Shown here: positions 3,388-32,596 of the stretch, piece by piece
Position numbering within the stretch: the first letter of the stretch is position 1
How the letters are laid out: each line of letters starts with the position of its first letter
Source: Verrucomicrobiota bacterium
GTDB lineage: Bacteria > Verrucomicrobiota > Verrucomicrobiia > Opitutales > Opitutaceae
Assembly: GCA_016871755.1 (NCBI GenBank)
Contig: VHCJ01000017.1
Location: 1 to 61,585, forward strand
Direction of reading: 5' to 3'
DNA: 61,585 bases
Notes under the pieces: generated by a model
What the model was told of the DNA's origin: nothing
Seen by the model: the letters and a program-made list of their open reading frames with translations, nothing else
Databases searched by the model: none
Program-made: the position numbers and the translations under genes

Positions 3388-4914
3388 ATGAGCACGGTCC
3401 TCGAACAAATCGAACAGCAGATCGCCAAGCTTTCCAGCAAGGCCGTCCGCAAGAACACGGGTGTCATCCGCACCGTCGCCGACGGCGTCGCCAAGATCGA
3501 CGGCCTGTCCGACGTCATGTACAACGAGATGGTCTCGTTCCCCGGCGGCGCGATCGGCATCGCGCTGAACCTCGAGCAGGACGAGGTCGGTTGCGTCGTC
3601 CTCGGCGACGTCTCGCGCCTCAAGGAAGGCGACGAGGTCCAGACGACCGGCAAGCTTCTCTCCGTCCCGGTCGGCAAGGGCCTGCTCGGCCGCGTGGTCG
3701 ACGCCCTCGGCGCACCGGTTGACGGCAAGGGTCCGATCACCGCGACGGAGAGCTACCCGGTCGAGAAAATCGCCCCCGGCATCGTGGTGCGCAAGTCCGT
3801 CTCCCAGCCGCTCTTCACCGGCATCATGGCGATCGACTCCATGATCCCGATCGGCCGTGGCCAGCGCGAGCTGATCATCGGCGACCGCGGCACGGGCAAG
3901 ACGACCATCGCGATCGACACGATCATCAACCAGGCGAAGATCAACAAAGTCGGCCTCGCGAGCGGCGATCCGAAGTTCCGCCCGGTCTACTCGATCTACG
4001 TCGCCGTCGGTCAGAAGAATTCCAACATCGTCCGCACCATCGGTGCCCTCGAGGCCGCCGGCGCGCTCGAGTACACCGTGATCGTCGCGGCCCCCGCCGC
4101 CGACAACCCGGCCAATCAGTACCTCGCCCCGTACTCCGGTGCGGCGATCGGCGAGTGGTTCATGGAAAACGGCATGGACGCGCTGATCGTGTACGACGAT
4201 CTCTCCAAGCACGCCGTCGCCTACCGCCAGATTTCGCTCATCCTCAAGCGTCCGTCCGGCCGCGAGGCTTACCCGGGCGACGTGTTCTACCTGCACAGCC
4301 GCCTGCTCGAGCGCTCCGCGCGCCTCGACGGCAAGGGCTCGCTGACCGCGCTGCCGATCATCGAGACGCTGGCCGGCGACGTCTCGGCGTACATCCCGAC
4401 CAACGTCATCTCCATCACCGACGGCCAGATCTTCCTCGAGACCGATCTCTTCAATCAGGGCATCCGCCCGGCCGTGTCCGTCGGCCTCTCGGTGTCCCGC
4501 GTCGGCTCGTCCGCGCAGATCAAGGCGACCAAGCAGGTCGGCGGCAAGCTGAAGGGCGAGCTCGCGCAGTTCCGCGAGCTGGCGGCGTTCGCGCAGTTCG
4601 GTTCCGACCTCGACGCGAAGACGAAGTCCCAGCTCGACCGCGGCAGCCGCATCGTCGAACTCTTCAAGCAGCCGGCCTTCAACCCGATCCCGATCGAGCA
4701 GCAGGTCGTCACCCTCTGGGCGATGCAGAAGGGTTTCTACGACAGCCTCGACCTCAAGGGAGTGACCGCCGCGAGCGTCGCGCTCCGCGAGTTCTTCGCC
4801 ACGCGCAAGGACGCCGTGCTCGCCGAGATCCGCACGAAGGCGGCGCTCGACAAGGACCTTGAGGAAAAGATCAAGGGTGGCGTCGAGGAGTGGAAGGCCA
4901 GCTTCTCCGCCTAA
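3388..4914 (+). CDS. atpA: F-type ATP synthase subunit alpha
   Basis: 508-residue non-catalytic nucleotide-binding subunit of F1. The P-loop is GDRGTGKT at residues 165-172; the usual alpha sequence is GDRQTGKT, so the conserved Gln is replaced by Gly. Other family blocks are clear: '[18 protein letters not shown]'-like region, '[17 protein letters not shown]', '[15 protein letters not shown]', '[19 protein letters not shown]' (here KRPSGR...), and '[17 protein letters not shown]'. Length is normal. ATG at 3388 follows atpH by 51 bp. Confidence 0.98.
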
Positions 4915-4955
4915 GCCCGTCCCGCTTCCGTTTTCTCTTCGGTCACCGCTGAACC

Positions 4956-5831
4956 ATGGCTTCCACCCGCGATATCCGACGCCGCATCAAGTCGGTCAAG
5001 AACACCCGCCAGATCACCAAGGCGATGGAGCTGGTCGCGGCGTCGAAGATGAAGAAGGCGCAGCAGGCGGCCCTCGCCGGCCGGCCCTACTCGCAGCTGA
5101 TGTCCCGCATGCTCGCCGCGCTGGCCTCCCGCGTCGAGGAGTCGCAGCATCCTTTCCTCGTGACCCGCGAGGTCCGCACCCGCGGCGTGCTGGTGATCTC
5201 CACCGACAAGGGCCTCTGCGGGCCGCTGAACAGCAACCTGTTCAAGCTCATCACCGACGTGAAGACGCCGGCCAAGTTCGTCGCGACCGGGCGCAAGGGC
5301 GCCCAGTTCCTCGCCCGCACCAAGCGTGACCTCGTGGCGGAGTTCCCGATCTCCGACCGGGTCGCCTTCGCCGAGGTGCGCGTCGCGGTCGAGTTCATGG
5401 TGAAGCTCTACCTCGAGGGCACGATCGACACCTTCGAGGTCATCTACTCCCGCTTCCGCAACACGCTCGTGCAGGAGGCCATGATCCGCCCGATCCTGCC
5501 GCTCGGCAACCTCCGCTCCTTCATCGAGTCCGCCCGCGGCTCGGCGAAGGCCGAGGGCGACTCCTTCGCCGACACGCGCGACATCCTCTTCGAGCCGGAC
5601 GCGCAGACCGTCCTCGAGGCGCTGCTTCCCTTCTACGTCAACCGCCACGTCTACCAGCTCGCCCTCTCCGCCAAGGCGTCCGAGCAGAGCGCCCGCATGG
5701 TCGCGATGAAGACCGCCAAGGACAATGCGACCAAGCTGCTCGGCGATCTCACGCTCGAGTACAACAAGGCGCGCCAGGCCGCGATCACCCAGGAGATCCT
5801 CGAGATCGCCGCCGCCTCGTTCGCCGCCTGA
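4956..5831 (+). CDS. atpG: F-type ATP synthase subunit gamma
   Basis: 291-residue rotor shaft. The N-terminus 'MASTRDIRRRIKSVKNTRQI' followed by 'TKAMELVAASKMKKAQ' is the canonical gamma start, and the C-terminal helix 'MVAMKTAKDNATKLLGDLTL' with 'YNKARQAAITQEILEIAAA' is the other half of the coiled coil. The central Rossmann-like region contains 'VISTDKGLCGPLNSN'. Normal length and position between alpha and beta. Confidence 0.97.
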   Translation: MASTRDIRRRIKSVKNTRQITKAMELVAASKMKKAQQAALAGRPYSQLMSRMLAALASRVEESQHPFLVTREVRTRGVLVISTDKGLCGPLNSNLFKLITDVKTPAKFVATGRKGAQFLARTKRDLVAEFPISDRVAFAEVRVAVEFMVKLYLEGTIDTFEVIYSRFRNTLVQEAMIRPILPLGNLRSFIESARGSAKAEGDSFADTRDILFEPDAQTVLEALLPFYVNRHVYQLALSAKASEQSARMVAMKTAKDNATKLLGDLTLEYNKARQAAITQEILEIAAASFAA

Positions 5832-7301
<1,470 letters not shown>

Positions 7302-7349
7302 TCGACGCGCCGCCGCGCCCGCGGCGGCCGTCCCTCGTTCGTCCCCTCC

Positions 7350-7757
7350 ATGCCTCTCACCCTCGAAATCGTCACCCCCGAAGCCCGGGTGTATTCCGAC
7401 ACCATCGACACCGTGGTCATCCCCACGGTCGAGGGTGAGATCGGCATCCTTCCCGGCCACATCCCGCTGCTCACGCAGGTGGCGGCCGGCGAACTGCGCG
7501 TCACCAAGGACGGCAAGACCGCCCACCTCGCCGTCGGCGGAGGTTTCGCCGACGTGAAGGGTGATCGCGTGTCCGTGCTCGCCGAGAGTGCGATCGCCGA
7601 GGAGAAGATCGACGTGAACGCGGTCGAGGAAGCCCGCGCCCGCGCGGAGAAGACCTTGAAGGAGAAGTTCGATCTCGAACCCGCCGAGGTCGAGCGCCTC
7701 GAGGGCGTCGTCCGCTTCGCGGTCGCCCAGCTCACCGTCAAGGCGCGCCGCCGGTAG
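7350..7757 (+). CDS. atpC: F-type ATP synthase subunit epsilon
   Basis: 135-residue rotor-foot subunit. The N-terminal beta-sandwich has 'TLEIVTPEARVYSDTIDTVV' and the family motif 'VEGEIGILPGHIPLLT', plus 'LAVGGGFADVKGDRVSVLAE'. The C-terminal helical hairpin is Glu/Lys/Arg-rich (residues about 85-120). It ends the atp operon; the next gene starts 74 bp later and may have its own promoter. Confidence 0.96.
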   Translation: MPLTLEIVTPEARVYSDTIDTVVIPTVEGEIGILPGHIPLLTQVAAGELRVTKDGKTAHLAVGGGFADVKGDRVSVLAESAIAEEKIDVNAVEEARARAEKTLKEKFDLEPAEVERLEGVVRFAVAQLTVKARRR

Positions 7758-7831
7758 TCGCCGCCAGGCGGGTCTGCGGGCCCGGGGGCAATTTGCTTGC
7801 CTTGTGCCTTGGGCGGTACAAGTTCCCTCGC

Positions 7832-8068
7832 ATGAAGCTCTTCCGCGCTCTCGTGGTCTCTCTTTCCGCCGCGGTTTTTGCCGTGGGTGTTGTGTTCGCC
7901 GCTGAAAATGCCGCCCCCAAGGCCAAGCCCGAGGGCAATCCCGGAAAGTGCTGCGTCAAGGCGGAGAGCGCGGGCAAGACCTGCGACCACAAGTGCTGCG
8001 TTGAGGCCAACGCTGCGGGCAAGAACTGCGAGAAGTGCGGTGGCGCCAATCCCGCGAAGAAGGCCTGA
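7832..8068 (+). CDS. small Cys-rich secreted protein of unknown function
   Basis: 78 residues. The ATG at 7832 is chosen because it opens directly on a signal peptide (MKLFRALVVSLSAAVFAVGVVFA-AEN). The mature part is about 55 residues, Ala/Lys-rich, with seven cysteines in the patterns KCCVK, TCDHKCCVE and NCEKCGG. The two KCCV blocks suggest an internal duplication of about 21 residues. The cysteines could bind a metal or form disulfides. I do not recognise a family. It lies between atpC and a strong terminator, with a weak TTGCTT-N18-TACAAG promoter-like pair ahead of it, so it may be read both from atp and alone. Confidence 0.7.
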   Translation: MKLFRALVVSLSAAVFAVGVVFAAENAAPKAKPEGNPGKCCVKAESAGKTCDHKCCVEANAAGKNCEKCGGANPAKKA

Positions 8069-8093
8069 ACGCCCGTCAATTTCTGACTCTCCG

Positions 8094-8125
8094 GCCGGGT
8101 GCCCTCGCGGGCACCCGGCTTTTTT
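8094..8125 (+). terminator. Rho-independent terminator closing the atp block
   Basis: Perfect 11-bp stem GCCGGGTGCCC / GGGCACCCGGC (8094-8104 with 8109-8119), TCGC loop, then six T (8120-8125). It lies 25 bp after the Cys-rich gene and upstream of the feo operon, insulating the two. Confidence 0.93.
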
Positions 8126-8277
8126 GGGGTCGCCCGCCACGGGTTCGCGGCGGCCCTGATGGCGTTGACGGCGTCGCACGCGTCGCCGGCCTCGATTGGC
8201 CGCCTATGGCACCCGACAAGCAGAGGGAGGCGTCATCGCCGCAGGCCAGGGGAGCCGCTTTCCGCAGTGCCGAAGGT

Positions 8278-8298
8278 TGACTCTGAAACTCAGTCTCA
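8278..8298 (+). promoter_or_regulatory. Fur-box-like dyad overlapping a possible feo promoter
   Basis: A 21-bp imperfect palindrome of form TGA-N2-CTGA-N3-TCAG-N2-TCA. Aligned by hand to the 19-bp E. coli Fur consensus plus its flanking T and A, it matches at 14 of 21 positions. It begins inside a TTGACT (8277-8282) resembling a -35 element, with CAGCAT 17 bp later as a poor -10. The first feoA starts 22 bp downstream. Iron repression through Fur is the expected control of feo operons; that this dyad is the site is inference. Confidence 0.5.
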
Positions 8299-8320
8299 GC
8301 AGCATCCGTGGAGTAAGGCC

Positions 8321-8587
8321 ATGCCTTCGTCGTCGCAATCGTCAGCTCCGTCCGCGCTCGTTCCGTTGTGCCAGCTTCTGGCGGGGGCAAGTGGCCGCGT
8401 GCATGAATTGGCCGGAGCGGGGGCGTTTCGGGAGCGAATCCGCGAACTTGGCTTGGGTGAGTCGACCATGGTCACGAAGGTCTCGGGGCAGTCTCCGGTG
8501 ATTTGCCGGATCAATGGAACCCGCATCGCGTTGAGTCACGGTGCGGCGAGCCAGATCCTCGTGGAGCCGTTCGGCGGAGCCTCCTGA
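8321..8587 (+). CDS. feoA: FeoA-domain protein, first copy
   Basis: 88 residues. The FeoA SH3-like domain covers about 14-82 ('PLCQLLAGASGRVHELAG', 'RIRELGLGESTMVTKVSG', 'RINGTRIALSHGAASQILVEP'), preceded by a Ser-rich leader. FeoA proteins are small cytosolic partners of the ferrous iron permease FeoB. The ATG at 8321 follows a GGAG (8310-8313); longer readings upstream run into the terminator and regulatory region. It is 11 bp ahead of a second FeoA gene. Confidence 0.85.
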   Translation: MPSSSQSSAPSALVPLCQLLAGASGRVHELAGAGAFRERIRELGLGESTMVTKVSGQSPVICRINGTRIALSHGAASQILVEPFGGAS

Positions 8588-28407: not shown

Positions 28408-28502
28408 TATTTTCGCAGGTTCTCACACCGGTGACGCCTCGTGGTACACCTCTTTGCGCCTCCGGCGCCCTTGCCGTTCGGCCTGCTGGCCGGAGCGGGT
28501 GG

Positions 28503-30044
28503 GTGCGCATCATGTGGGCAGGCCTCGGTCTGATTCTCGGTCTGAGTCCGGGCCGGGCCGCGGAGGACGCGAAGACCCTGCGCTGGGAGGACAACGCCTG
28601 GCCCGTGTGGGTGGGGCAGTGGCGCGGAGGTACTTCCTCAGGTGCGGCGCCGGAGCTTGAATCGTGGACGGCGGGCGGGCCGCTGGTGTTTCACCGAGGG
28701 GCCCGGGAGGGCCGGCCGGAGGTGGGCGGCGTGCGGCCCCTGTGGATCGAGCAGCGGCGCGACGGCGGTTTGGCGCGGAACAGCTGGGTGTTGCATCCCT
28801 TGTTGAGCACGCGTCGTGAGCGTGACGGGGTGGAGGCGGGCAGCGTGTTTGAACTCATCAAGTGGCAGACGGTGCCGGGCGACGGCTCTGGTCAGCGGGC
28901 TGACGGCGCGGGTGCGGCGCCGCCGTGGCGTGCCTTGGATGTCTGGCCGTTCTACTTTTCGCGGGCGACGGGCGAAGCCCCGACCTCCTACCAAGCGTGG
29001 TTCCCGCTGGGCGGGACGATGGTGAACCGGTTCGGACAGGACCGATTGTCCTGGGTTCTCTTCCCGCTCTACGCCCGCTTTGAAAAGCGCGGCGTGGTGA
29101 CGACTGCGGCGCCGTGGCCGCTGCTGCGCTGGAGTGAAGGCGGAGGGCAGTCCGGCTTCGCGCTGTGGCCCCTCTACGGGGAGACCCTGCGGGCCGACGG
29201 CGGGAGCGAACGCTACGCGCTGTGGCCGCTTGTCTATCACCGTGAGATGCCGGTTGACGGCAACACGTCCGAGCGCGCGGTCAACCGGGGATTCCTGCCC
29301 TTCTACGCCTCCGATGTGGCGCCGGGCTACCGCTCGGAGACCTGGCTCTGGCCCTTCTTTGGCCACGTGGACCGTTCGGCGCCGTTTCAGTACCGGGCGA
29401 ACAACTACCTCTGGCCGCTCTGGGTTCAGGGGCGCGGCGACGATCGGCGGGTCAACCGGTGGGCTCCTTTCTACACGCACTCGGTGATCAAGGGTACGGA
29501 AAAGCACTGGGTGCTCTGGCCGCTGTGGCGGCGGCAGCGCTGGCCCGATGGGGCGATCGAGCAGACCCGGACGCAGGTGCTGTTCGCGCTGTATCACGAC
29601 ACGGTGCAGCGCAGCCGGACCACGCCCTCGCTTGCCCCCGCGCGGAAGCGTCATCTGTGGCCGCTTTTCTCGGAGTGGGACAACGGGGCCGGACGGCGGC
29701 AGGTGCAGGTGCTGAGTCCGCTGGAGGTCTTTCTCCCGCACAGCGAGGAGGTCCGGCAGGCGTGGTCCCCGCTCTTCTCAGTCTATCGCTATGAACGTCA
29801 GTCCGATGGCGCCTCGCGGCACTCCCTGCTTTGGGACGGCGTCACCTACCGGAGCGCGCCGGGGGCGCAGGAGCGGGAGTGGCATTTCGGCCCGCTGCTC
29901 GGCTTTGCGTCGCGTCCGGAGGCGGGACGCTTCGCGCTCCTCCGTGGCGTGCTGGGCTTGAAGCGTGGCCCCGTCGGCTCAGGCTGGCGCCTGTTCGTCG
30001 GCGACTTCCGGCCCGTCGGTGCACCCTCTTATTCTCAGCCATGA
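28503..30044 (+). CDS. secreted WPL-repeat protein of unknown function, first gene of an MCE operon
   Basis: 513 residues from the GTG at 28503 (a GGAG lies six bases upstream; the ATG at 28512 is the alternative). A short signal peptide (MRIMWAGLGLILGLSPGRA-AED) precedes about eighteen short repeats centred on an aromatic-Pro-hydrophobic core: LWPLY, LWPLV, LWPFF, LWPLW, LWPLF, VWPFY, LFPLY, FLPFY, WAPFY, WSPLF and others, spaced roughly 20-40 residues. Charged or polar residues alternate with aromatics around each core, suggesting short amphipathic beta strands, as in a propeller or barrel. I recognise no family. It overlaps mlaE by four bases (ATGA), so it is coupled to the lipid-transport genes and may be their envelope partner. 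Confidence 0.75.
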   Translation: MRIMWAGLGLILGLSPGRAAEDAKTLRWEDNAWPVWVGQWRGGTSSGAAPELESWTAGGPLVFHRGAREGRPEVGGVRPLWIEQRRDGGLARNSWVLHPLLSTRRERDGVEAGSVFELIKWQTVPGDGSGQRADGAGAAPPWRALDVWPFYFSRATGEAPTSYQAWFPLGGTMVNRFGQDRLSWVLFPLYARFEKRGVVTTAAPWPLLRWSEGGGQSGFALWPLYGETLRADGGSERYALWPLVYHREMPVDGNTSERAVNRGFLPFYASDVAPGYRSETWLWPFFGHVDRSAPFQYRANNYLWPLWVQGRGDDRRVNRWAPFYTHSVIKGTEKHWVLWPLWRRQRWPDGAIEQTRTQVLFALYHDTVQRSRTTPSLAPARKRHLWPLFSEWDNGAGRRQVQVLSPLEVFLPHSEEVRQAWSPLFSVYRYERQSDGASRHSLLWDGVTYRSAPGAQEREWHFGPLLGFASRPEAGRFALLRGVLGLKRGPVGSGWRLFVGDFRPVGAPSYSQP

Positions 30045-30793
30045 ATCGCATCAACGAGGTCTTCGAAGCGTTCGGCAGCGCCCTGATCCTGGCGTGGCGC
30101 GCCTTCCGCTCCCTGCCGTCGGCTCCGCGCATCCTCCGGCGTGTTTCCGAGCAGGGTTACTTGGCGGGCTACACCACGCTGCCGATCGTGGCCATCCTCC
30201 TCTTCTTCATCGGGGCGGTGCTGGCGCTGCAGGCCGGCAACACGCTCCGCGACTTCGGCGCCAAGCAACTCATCGGCACGCTCGTCGGCGAGTCGATCGC
30301 CCGCGAACTCGGTCCGGTGATGGTGGCCATCCTGCTCGCCGGACGGGTGGGCTCGGCGGTGACGGCGGAATTGGCCTCGATGCGGGTCTCCGGCGAAGTC
30401 GACGCCTTGGTCACAATGAACATCCCGCCGGAGCGCATGCTCGTCCTGCCGCGCCTGCTCGCCGTGCTCCTGATCACCCCGGTGCTCACCATCATCGGCA
30501 ACATCATCGGGTGGTTCGGCGGCGCCGTCGTCTGCGCCGGGGTTAGCACGATCGGCGTGGAGCCGGAGATGTATTTCCAGGCACTCAAGCAGTACCTGAC
30601 CGTGCGGGACATCATGGACGGGCTGATCAAGGCCGAGGTCTTCGGCTTCGTGGTCATGCTCATCGCCTGCTCCACCGGCCTGCGCACGCGCGGCGGCCCG
30701 CGTGAGATCGGCTTCGCCGTCACCAAGTCGGTCGTGTTCTCGCTCATCGCGATTCTCACGCTCGACTACTTCATCACCAAGGCGCTCGACTGA
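30041..30793 (+). CDS. mlaE: MlaE-type lipid ABC transporter permease
   Basis: 250 residues, MlaE/DUF140 family. Membrane helices at about 45-68, 92-112, 143-170, 195-220 and 225-247. Family blocks: 'YLAGYTTLPIVAILLFFIGA', 'FGAKQLIGTLVGESIARELG', 'PVMVAILLAGRVGSAVTAEL', 'MRVSGEVDALVTMNI' and 'RTRGGPREIGFAVTKSVV'. It forms the inner-membrane core for phospholipid or other lipid transport across the envelope. Starts inside the stop codon of the WPL-repeat gene; longer starts upstream would overlap that gene heavily. Confidence 0.94.
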   Translation: MNRINEVFEAFGSALILAWRAFRSLPSAPRILRRVSEQGYLAGYTTLPIVAILLFFIGAVLALQAGNTLRDFGAKQLIGTLVGESIARELGPVMVAILLAGRVGSAVTAELASMRVSGEVDALVTMNIPPERMLVLPRLLAVLLITPVLTIIGNIIGWFGGAVVCAGVSTIGVEPEMYFQALKQYLTVRDIMDGLIKAEVFGFVVMLIACSTGLRTRGGPREIGFAVTKSVVFSLIAILTLDYFITKALD

Positions 30794-30795
30794 CT

Positions 30796-31614
30796 ATGGC
30801 CTCGCTCCGTCGCAAATCCCCTCCCGCGCCCGTGCGCGACGACCGCAGCCCGGTGCGGATCACCGTGTCCGGTCTGAGCAAGAGCTACGGCCCGCAGAGC
30901 GTGCTCCGGGAGGTCTCGCTTGAAGTGCAGCCGGGGGAGATCTTCGTGATCATGGGGCCGAGCGGATCGGGCAAGAGCGTGCTGCTGCGCCACGTCGCCG
31001 GGCTGGAGGTTCCCACCGGAGGAACGGTCGCGATCAACGGCCATGATCCCCGCCTGCCCGAGACGCGCGACCGCTTCGCGCTCGCCCTCGTCTTCCAGAG
31101 CGGCGCGCTCTTCAACTCGCTCAGCGTCTACGAGAACCTAGCGCTCTACCCGCTCGAGCACCGCCTCTGCCCCAAGCCGGAAATCCGCGAGCGCGTGGTG
31201 CGCGCCCTGCGCATCCTCTCCATCGAGAACGCCGTCCATAAGTTTCCGTCCGAGCTGTCCGGCGGGATGAAGAAGCGCGTCGCCATCGCCCGCGCGCTCG
31301 TGATGGAGCCGCAGGTCATGCTCTACGACGAGCCGACCAGCGAACTCGACCCGGTGATGGCGGCGACCATCGCGGAGATCATTGCCACGCTGAAGGAGCA
31401 GTTCAGCGTGACTTCGGTGGTGGTGTCGCACGATCGTGATCTCGCCTTCGCCATCGCGGATCGCATCGCCGTGCTGCACCAGGGTCGGCTGCTGGCCGTC
31501 CAGACCCCGGCCGAACTCCGGGAGAACCGCGATCCGATCATCCGCGAGTTCCTCCGTCCGGTGATCAATCTTCAGGAACCCCGTTTCAAGAAACTCGAAG
31601 CCAACCATGACTAG
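30796..31614 (+). CDS. mlaF: MlaF-type ABC ATPase
   Basis: 272 residues. Walker A GPSGSGKS (54-61), Q-loop 'LVFQSGALFNSLSVYEN' (typical of MlaF with its 'FQ.gALF.sl'), signature 'LSGGMKKRVAIARAL', Walker B 'VMLYDEPTSELDP', H-loop 'VVSHD'. It powers the MlaE permease. Starts 2 bp after the mlaE stop and overlaps mlaD by 8 bp. Confidence 0.95.
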   Translation: MASLRRKSPPAPVRDDRSPVRITVSGLSKSYGPQSVLREVSLEVQPGEIFVIMGPSGSGKSVLLRHVAGLEVPTGGTVAINGHDPRLPETRDRFALALVFQSGALFNSLSVYENLALYPLEHRLCPKPEIRERVVRALRILSIENAVHKFPSELSGGMKKRVAIARALVMEPQVMLYDEPTSELDPVMAATIAEIIATLKEQFSVTSVVVSHDRDLAFAIADRIAVLHQGRLLAVQTPAELRENRDPIIREFLRPVINLQEPRFKKLEANHD

Positions 31615-32596
31615 CGCGCAAATGTCGGCCCGCGTGGGCCTTTTCTTCCTGCTCGGTGTCGCCCTCATCTGGGTGACGTTCGAGTCCCTCAGCTCCGGCA
31701 ACGTCCGCCGCGACCGCGGGTACCGGCTCGTCGCCCACTTCGCCAGCGTCAAGGAACTCAAGGGTGGCGACGAGGTCCGCATGGCCGGCGTCAAGGTCGG
31801 CTCGGTCGCCGAGACACGCCTCGCCAACCGCCGCGCCGAGGTGGTCCTCCTCATCAACTCCGACGTGGCGGTCGCTCAGGACTCCGTCGCCACGATCGGG
31901 ATGGCCGGCCTGCTGGGCTCAAACTATGTATCGCTCGACCTCGGCACCGAGGCCGCCGGCGTGCTGCAACCGGGGAGCCTGATCCGCACGGCCGACACGC
32001 CGGACCTCAATGCCGTCGTGTCCCAACTCGGCGAGGTCAGCCGCAAGATCGATACGGCGCTCACCCAGTTCACCGGGGCCATGGGCTCCGCCGGAGGCTC
32101 CGGCCTGCTCGGAAAGATCGATCGCCTCGTGGACGAGAACAGCGCGCGGATCGGTCAGATCACGACCGATCTCAGCGCGATCTCCGGCAAGGTGAACTCC
32201 GGCCAGGGCACCCTTGGACGGCTGGTCAATGATCCCGCCGCCTACGACTCCTTGGTCGCCGCGCTCGGCGAGATCCGTGGCGCCGCCGCCGAGGCGAAGA
32301 CGTTCGTCGCCAGCTCCCAGTCGATCATTGACCAGGTCAAGAGCGGTCGTGGCACTTTGGGCGCACTCGTCTTCGACCAGCAGGCCGGCGATGACATCCG
32401 GGTCGTGGCCCGCAATCTTCGTGAGGTATCCGACCGCCTGAGCAAGGGCGAGGGGACGCTGGGACGGTTGCTCACCGACGACACCCTCTTCCGGGATGCG
32501 CAGGGCGTCATGCGCAAGGTCGACCGGGCCGTTGATGGTCTCACGGATCAAGGCCCGATCACCGCCGTGGGTGTGGCGGCGAACGCCTTGTTCTGA
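31607..32596 (+). CDS. mlaD: MCE-domain lipid-binding protein (MlaD-like)
   Basis: 329 residues: one N-terminal membrane anchor (about 8-25), a single MCE domain (about 38-118, 'YRLVAHFASVKELKGGDEVR', 'MAGVKVGSVAETRL', 'DSVATIGMAGLLGSNYVSLD') and a long C-terminal helical region. The tail carries three repeats of the form SG.GTLG.LV / RGTLGALV / EGTLGRLL, seen in MCE proteins of Verrucomicrobia and Bacteroidetes. It should hexamerise in the periplasm as a lipid conduit on MlaE. Last gene of the operon; no MlaA, MlaB or MlaC homologue lies nearby. Confidence 0.93.
   Translation: MTSAQMSARVGLFFLLGVALIWVTFESLSSGNVRRDRGYRLVAHFASVKELKGGDEVRMAGVKVGSVAETRLANRRAEVVLLINSDVAVAQDSVATIGMAGLLGSNYVSLDLGTEAAGVLQPGSLIRTADTPDLNAVVSQLGEVSRKIDTALTQFTGAMGSAGGSGLLGKIDRLVDENSARIGQITTDLSAISGKVNSGQGTLGRLVNDPAAYDSLVAALGEIRGAAAEAKTFVASSQSIIDQVKSGRGTLGALVFDQQAGDDIRVVARNLREVSDRLSKGEGTLGRLLTDDTLFRDAQGVMRKVDRAVDGLTDQGPITAVGVAANALF

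Follow-up and report, generated by a model that had tools for sequence, protein, structure and literature searches.

The WPL Gene and the MlaEFD Operon

We analysed a window of 61,585 nucleotides, meaning the whole stretch of contig VHCJ01000017.1 of a Verrucomicrobiota bacterium (assembly GCA_016871755.1), which comes from a genome of 3.67 Mb that is 97% complete. At positions 28,503 to 32,596 it encodes an exported protein of 513 residues, called the WPL protein here, and then mlaE, mlaF and mlaD, all on one strand and in that order. By its permease, MCE-domain protein and ATPase matches, the operon is an MCE/Mla-type lipid ATP-binding cassette (ABC) transporter, for which phospholipid transport is predicted. 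A sequence-only reading of this DNA had described a 513-residue protein that overlaps mlaE by ATGA and is followed by mlaF and mlaD, and the open reading frame coordinates and family matches confirm it. The WPL reading frame as a whole spans 28,431 to 30,044 with a GTG start, and an internal GTG at 28,503 yields the 513 residues. The features are as follows.

28,503 to 30,044, + strand: gene of the exported WPL protein, 513 residues (reading frame with stop; no Pfam or NCBIfam match; family alignment A1)
28,503 to 28,565, + strand: putative signal peptide of WPL, residues 1 to 21, no lipobox (read by eye: MRIMWAGLGLILGLSPGRAAED; similar N termini in relatives)
28,581 to 29,999, + strand: predicted 45-strand beta-meander with 22 hydrophobic xPL-type joints on alternate loops (AlphaFold2 model, joint analysis)
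29,712 to 29,777, + strand: predicted helical insertion within one joint, residues 404 to 425 (same place in both models)
30,041 to 30,044, + strand: ATGA overlap between the stop of the WPL gene and the start of mlaE (TGA at 30,042 to 30,044; mlaE ATG at 30,041)
30,041 to 30,793, + strand: mlaE, permease (PF02405, 1.1e-70; TIGR00056 above cut-off)
30,796 to 31,614, + strand: mlaF, ABC ATPase (PF00005, 1.6e-32)
31,607 to 32,596, + strand: mlaD, long type, 329 residues (PF02470, 1.6e-16, 60.7 bits against a cut-off of 25.1; 8-base overlap with mlaF)
31,715 to 31,942, + strand: MCE domain of MlaD (PF02470 match)
32,552 to 32,593, + strand: conserved hydrophobic C-terminal tip of MlaD (GPITAVGVAANALF; from 85 MlaD at WPL loci)

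Sequence and Repeat of the WPL Protein

The WPL protein matched no family in Pfam or NCBIfam. Its 62 distant relatives had no match in NCBIfam and a single stray one in Pfam (SET_TTL, E 0.0005, one relative); PF04333 (MlaA), PF05494 (MlaC), PF03886 (PqiC-type) and the MORN motif of Pfam matched neither WPL nor these relatives. Sequence searches of the PDB with one protein and two profiles gave nothing informative: two returned no chains at E 10 and one returned three weak matches (E 0.1 to 0.65). No paper on the WPL protein appeared among the matches listed from the full-text PMC library.

The repeat exceeds chance: beyond residue 26 the sequence has 13 [WFYLH]-P-[LFVWIY] motifs, whereas 20,000 shuffles averaged 3.2 and never gave more than 11. 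Two alignments were used below, a 27-row profile (A1) and a 62-row profile of distant members (A2); of the 21 columns that are invariant in the latter, 14 hold proline.

Signal-peptide-like N termini were seen by eye in many relatives. A lipobox was also recognised by eye in 13 of the 101 members from the order and the phylum, and Asp never follows its Cys; a loose lipobox pattern had flagged 17, some of them wrongly, and had missed L139. Displaced genes, that is, those not adjacent to mlaE, account for six of the 13. Under the +2 rule for lipoproteins, which concerns the residue after the Cys, a lipobox without Asp in that place fits an outer-membrane lipoprotein, and these members would then be located at the outer membrane. 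Part of the family at least looks membrane-anchored outside the cytoplasm.

Predicted Fold

The window WPL was modelled by AlphaFold2 with alignment A1, and a distant lipoprotein member (L110) was modelled with alignment A2. The predicted local distance difference test score (pLDDT) was 86.4 for the window model and 95.3 for L110, and the predicted template modelling score (pTM) was 0.72 and 0.84, respectively. Each model has 45 strands, with mean lengths of 6.0 and 5.8 residues, and one strand of the window model has 11. The 22 loops that follow odd strands are hydrophobic, with a WFYLIVMP fraction of 0.76 in the window model and 0.82 in L110 and with Pro in 18 and 19 of the 22; the loops after even strands are polar, with fractions of 0.19 and 0.10. 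The invariant Pro residues lie outside the strands in both alignments (18 of 18 and 14 of 14). The sequence-only reading had counted about eighteen aromatic-Pro-hydrophobic repeats, which matches the 18 Pro-bearing joints of the window model. If every loop reverses the chain, as in MORN1, OspA and TCP10, then all the joints would stand on a single edge.

Open single-layer meanders (MORN1, the TCP10 G-box and OspA) align best to the WPL models. In one comparison the best structural alignments were with the TCP10 G-box (Z 10.8, root-mean-square deviation (rmsd) 13.4, 179 aligned residues) and MORN1 (Z 8.4, rmsd 5.6, 174 aligned), and a second comparison gave MORN1 with Z 9.4, rmsd 11.4 and 163 aligned; most of the Z values are close to the noise level stated by the tool. 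Among the 50 matches listed for each Foldseek search, no PDB structure matched over the whole length of WPL (TM-scores on the model of at most 0.19). WD40, IFT, megalin and teneurin chains stood at the top of these lists with TM-scores under 0.2 and were not taken as a sign of kinship. The confident models point to a meander of short strands, and not to an ordinary porin or an enzyme. Short beta strands, as expected by the sequence-only reading, were borne out by the models. Its suggestion of a barrel or propeller was not supported, since a usual membrane-spanning barrel has longer strands and open meanders give the best structural alignments, although an unusual closed ring is still conceivable.

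An outer-membrane beta-barrel pore could be proposed for WPL, which is all-beta and aromatic-rich and aligns weakly with VDAC, OmpU, LptD and a porin complex (Z about 4.6 to 7.2, rmsd about 5 to 25). The strands of usual membrane-spanning barrels have about nine or more residues. However, those of the WPL models fall below this length, averaging six residues, with polar residues on either side of the joints; the open meanders align better (best Z 8.4 to 10.8), and the 13 lipoprotein-like relatives also argue against a pore, which we consider very improbable. Still less can be said for a soluble enzyme or a classical beta-propeller. Tandem WD40 proteins did appear near the top of the Foldseek lists, but their alignments have TM-scores of about 0.09 to 0.16 on the model and rmsd above 22, and in both alignments of the family the conserved positions hold chiefly Pro, Trp and Gly of the joints, among which no set of catalytic residues stands out. 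An unrelated enzyme fold, which the sequence-only reading had kept in view, did not appear when the protein was modelled alone. With poor WD40 alignments, no evident catalytic set and short strands, the enzyme, propeller and ordinary porin readings were rejected, the first two as extremely improbable.

Distribution and Gene Order

A contig scan with the single WPL protein reached only near relatives, the nearest named ones being Opitutaceae and other Verrucomicrobia metagenome-assembled genomes. In the family, a search with the single protein found WPL in 106 of 150 genomes; the A1 profile found it in 67 of 223 genomes of the order and 120 of 288 of the phylum, and the A2 profile in 51 of 188 of the class; all profile searches were confined to the phylum. 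The order count includes weak matches in G245 and G293, in frames of 738 and 832 residues that encode a longer repeat protein where opened, and the class count includes G185 and G199, both of this longer kind. Two such W-P-L repeat proteins, L252 2254–4467 (738 residues) and L253 1358–3832 (825 residues, lipobox by eye), show no MCE gene within the opened stretch. The W-P-L repeat family reaches beyond Mla operons.

Some small genomes also carry the gene. Genomes of 0.7 to 1.1 Mb in family f26 keep WPL (G174, G191, G205, G261, G279, where it is split, G286, G295 and G311), and the operon was seen in L097 and L098. In the small genomes of f7, f25, f27 and f28, the order search with the A1 profile found no WPL.

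Adjacency was counted in opened loci when WPL ended at most 450 bases before mlaE on the same strand. We opened 37 loci in the family (seven of them on named contigs, at least five of which come from genomes already represented by the other 30), 21 in the order, 17 in the class and 80, from 79 genomes, in the phylum. Some 76 family genomes out of 106 and 31 class matches out of 51 lie outside these counts. The class search had given 20 loci, 13 of them close, from which L243, L244 and L246 were dropped as repeats of family or order genomes, and its loci extend only 1.5 kb beyond the WPL gene. Loci L038 to L078, of which 40 of 41 are close before mlaE, were left out as mostly places already counted or family genomes. 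On this basis, WPL adjoins mlaE in all 37 loci of the family, in 18 of the 21 of the order, in 10 of the 17 of the class and in 67 of the 80 of the phylum, and mlaF and mlaD usually follow mlaE in the order and phylum loci. The sequence-only reading depended on homologues standing next to MCE genes, and the search for co-occurrence with MlaEFD across genomes found them there.

The non-adjacent loci differ among themselves. L140 and L171 (two of the 13 in the phylum) reach a contig edge, L233 (one of the seven in the class) has 331 bases left, and mlaE lies about 650 bases on from WPL in L095, L235 and L240. Where WPL genes are displaced or cut, MlaE was found on another contig in 14 of 14 genomes. 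The genome G161, with a displaced WPL gene, retains in its lone mlaEFD a long MlaD with the conserved tip (L136).

Near-Exclusion of WPL with MlaA and MlaC

Neither MlaA nor MlaC was found in the genome of the window, with E. coli and Caulobacter as positive controls; the sequence-only reading had noted the absence of both at the locus. In the family, MlaC above the cut-off was detected in 7 of 106 WPL genomes and in 38 of 44 genomes without WPL; the 150 genomes divide into 7 with both, 99 with WPL only, 38 with MlaC only and 6 with neither. This search gave 49 MlaC matches at E 0.001, of which 45 were counted, including a weak one in G093 (46.6 bits); the four sub-cut-off matches left out (G047, G130, G133 and G149) are all in WPL genomes. 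In the order, MlaA occurs in none of 67 WPL genomes and in 43 of 156 without WPL. At least two MlaE are present in 77 order genomes, of which 50 carry WPL, 26 carry MlaA and one (G287) carries neither, and WPL is present in none of the 18 order genomes without MlaE. The same contrast exists within genera: in g4, G003 has WPL and G052 has MlaC, and in g32, G032 has WPL and G070 has MlaC. The Fisher tests on these co-occurrences assume independent genomes, an assumption that does not hold.

The separation is less sharp in the phylum sample. MlaC was found in 15 of 145 genomes, including G403 and G438 that also carry WPL; MlaA was found in 52 of the 145, with many of the matches in reading frames of about 600 to 880 residues. 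We opened three loci in which an MlaA domain lies in a lipoprotein-like frame of 668 to 750 residues (L249 2642–4891, L250 2520–4760 and L251 1545–3548); weak alpha/beta-hydrolase matches follow MlaA in two of them, and the third is similar by eye only. These long frames may join an outer-membrane lipid extractor to a lipase.

In a FastTree tree of 116 MlaE sequences, the operons of MlaA genomes (12) and the STAS-length type (6) each form a clade. The MlaA-genome clade stands beside the order-level WPL clade with a support of 0.896, which is too weak to order the two states. The near-exclusion in the order and the family is the strongest new evidence, and it argues for a replacement of MlaA/MlaC by WPL.

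The upstream neighbour was followed in one locus only, as neighbour-gene clustering returned many shadow reading frames. In L105 a phosphoglucosamine-mutase-type gene (6859–8214) overlaps the start of the WPL gene, and this operon may be linked to cell-envelope sugar synthesis in that lineage. It could be suggested that WPL has an envelope-building role of its own and is merely co-regulated with the transporter, as this overlap and the class and phylum loci without adjacency would allow. However, the mlaEFD operon is the neighbour that persists in most loci, and co-regulation leaves the near-exclusion with MlaA/MlaC unexplained; we regard it as quite unlikely.

MlaD Length and C-Terminal Tip

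At WPL loci, 85 uncut MlaD have 256 to 370 residues with a median of 334, a count that excludes a stray frame in L151 and the displaced locus L136. In 11 MlaE operons of MlaA-positive genomes (L123 to L133), MlaD has 148 to 171 residues, and in G181, G159 and G169 the genes of MlaC and MlaA are clustered with the mlaE of this short-MlaD type. The C-terminal residue at WPL loci is Phe in 72 of the 85 and Leu in 13. The tip takes the form GPITAVGVxANALF in the family and a ...ETxPITTFxSIFFGAF-like form in distant members; the MlaD ends of the MlaA-genome and STAS-length types are unlike it. Besides MCE, the window MlaD has no Pfam domain above the cut-off.

PMC10665443 reports that MlaD of the Planctomycetes-Verrucomicrobia-Chlamydiae (PVC) group lacks the C-terminal barrel proposed as an outer-membrane bridge in Veillonella, and that in hexamer models of two barrel-less MlaD the six single C-terminal strands form a tiny barrel. 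By analogy, the MlaD tips at WPL loci could form a tiny barrel likewise.

A long MlaD also bears on whether WPL is a periplasmic lipid shuttle or adaptor along the MlaD stalk, which would replace MlaC only and leave another protein at the outer membrane. Most members, the window's included, have no lipobox and could be free in the periplasm, and MlaC is absent along with MlaA from the window's genome. However, WPL has no sequence similarity to MlaC (no Pfam match), the 13 lipobox members look like lipoproteins, and with a long MlaD a shuttle is less needed. This explanation is unlikely, though it deserves more weight than co-regulation.

Proposed Role of WPL

We propose that WPL is probably a dedicated outer-side partner, on the periplasmic face of the outer membrane, of a long-tailed MlaEFD and takes the place of MlaA/MlaC. 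The comparative genomics argues strongly for a partner, while contact, location, lipid binding and direction are inferred. The sequence-only reading had suspected an unrecognised partner of MlaEFD, and the operon order across the phylum and the near-exclusion with MlaA/MlaC support it well.

Several observations weigh against this proposal. WPL does not adjoin mlaE in 3 of the 21 loci of the order, 7 of the 17 of the class and 13 of the 80 of the phylum. It occurs together with MlaC in 7 of 150 family genomes, as well as in G403 and G438; in the one opened of the family (G123), a separate MlaEFD with a short MlaD stands beside MlaC (L254). WPL and a long-frame MlaA share a genome in G384, G389, G393 and G428. 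A long MCE protein is also found in second, PqiC-type systems with a STAS-length MlaE (338 to 346 residues; 339 to 346 in a set of five loci), though without the tip. No lipobox is visible in most relatives, the window's WPL included, and these may not be attached to a membrane. Finally, the longer repeat protein of f19 (738 to 879 residues) stands without an MCE gene in the 6-kb stretches of two loci opened, and the W-P-L repeat is therefore not bound to MCE systems.

If WPL is the outer-side partner, MlaEF would drive lipid movement at the inner membrane and the MlaD oligomer (known MCE proteins are hexamers) would span the periplasm by its long tail. The hydrophobic C-terminal tips of MlaD may then dock on WPL, whose hydrophobic joint edge may lie at the inner leaflet of the outer membrane or act as a slide for acyl chains. 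A more specific picture is tentative: WPL might be a novel docking and conduit element for MCE transporters, formed by one chain of about 45 short strands that is either a superhelical ribbon extending through most of the width of the periplasm or a wide ring, closed on itself, in the region of the outer membrane, its one-sided row of about 22 W-P-L-type joints meeting the lipid layer and receiving the MlaD hexamer tips. It is possible, yet we would not expect it to hold in full. WPL represents a large protein family that carries no label, and its fold is predicted with confidence, with no whole-length match among the structures listed by the PDB searches; if the proposal is true, WPL belongs to a wider repeat family with members outside MCE operons.

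Comparison with Known Systems

In the Mla system of E. coli (MlaFEDB with MlaC and MlaA), MlaE, MlaF and the MCE-domain MlaD are encoded together, as in the WPL operon. However, the window genome is without MlaA and MlaC, its MlaD is long (329 residues), and its mlaE is coupled to the gene of an exported beta protein unrelated to MlaA and MlaC.

The single-layer antiparallel strands of MORN repeat proteins, the TCP10 G-box and OspA are joined in sequence like those of the WPL model; no sequence relation to them was found, and the likeness is structural only. AsmA-like bridges (TamB, YhdP) contain beta-sheet. They are periplasm-spanning lipid bridges of taco-like shape, as described in PMC12436622, and serve here as an analogy only. 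WPL differs from them in having no Pfam match to such families and in its short strands with Pro joints.

Other parallels exist among MCE systems. MlaEFD of Veillonella parvula, as described in PMC10665443, has a long MlaD and a proposed bridge and no MlaA/MlaC, as at the WPL locus; its barrel is part of MlaD, whereas the WPL operon has a short hydrophobic MlaD tip and a separate protein. Section 9 of that paper notes the missing MlaD barrel of the PVC group and names no separate partner protein for it. WPL may bear on how MlaEFD of this group reaches the outer membrane without MlaA/MlaC or an MlaD barrel.

In PqiABC, with its PqiC lipoprotein ring (PMC10897342), and in Brucella Mpc (PMC12436622), an outer-membrane-side partner receives the C terminus of the MCE protein; the same is proposed for WPL. 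Unlike PqiC, WPL is a 45-strand repeat protein with no PF03886 match. A PqiC-type gene does occur in the window genome, in a second MCE set (L119, G000:C6:18000-33000, positions 4711–8353) that consists of a 376-residue STAS-length MlaE, an ATPase, an MCE protein and a PF03886 lipoprotein. Each MCE system of this genome therefore has its own exported partner candidate.

A partner gene that is tied to the operon by ATGA, is spread through the phylum and almost never occurs with MlaA/MlaC in its order and family suggests that MCE transporters use interchangeable outer-partner modules, each suited to the form of their MlaD. WPL would be an unnamed partner family, and its operon a further variant of MCE transport. 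If this is true, WPL is a further route of MCE systems to the outer membrane, besides MlaA/MlaC, PqiC-type rings and barrel-ended MlaD.

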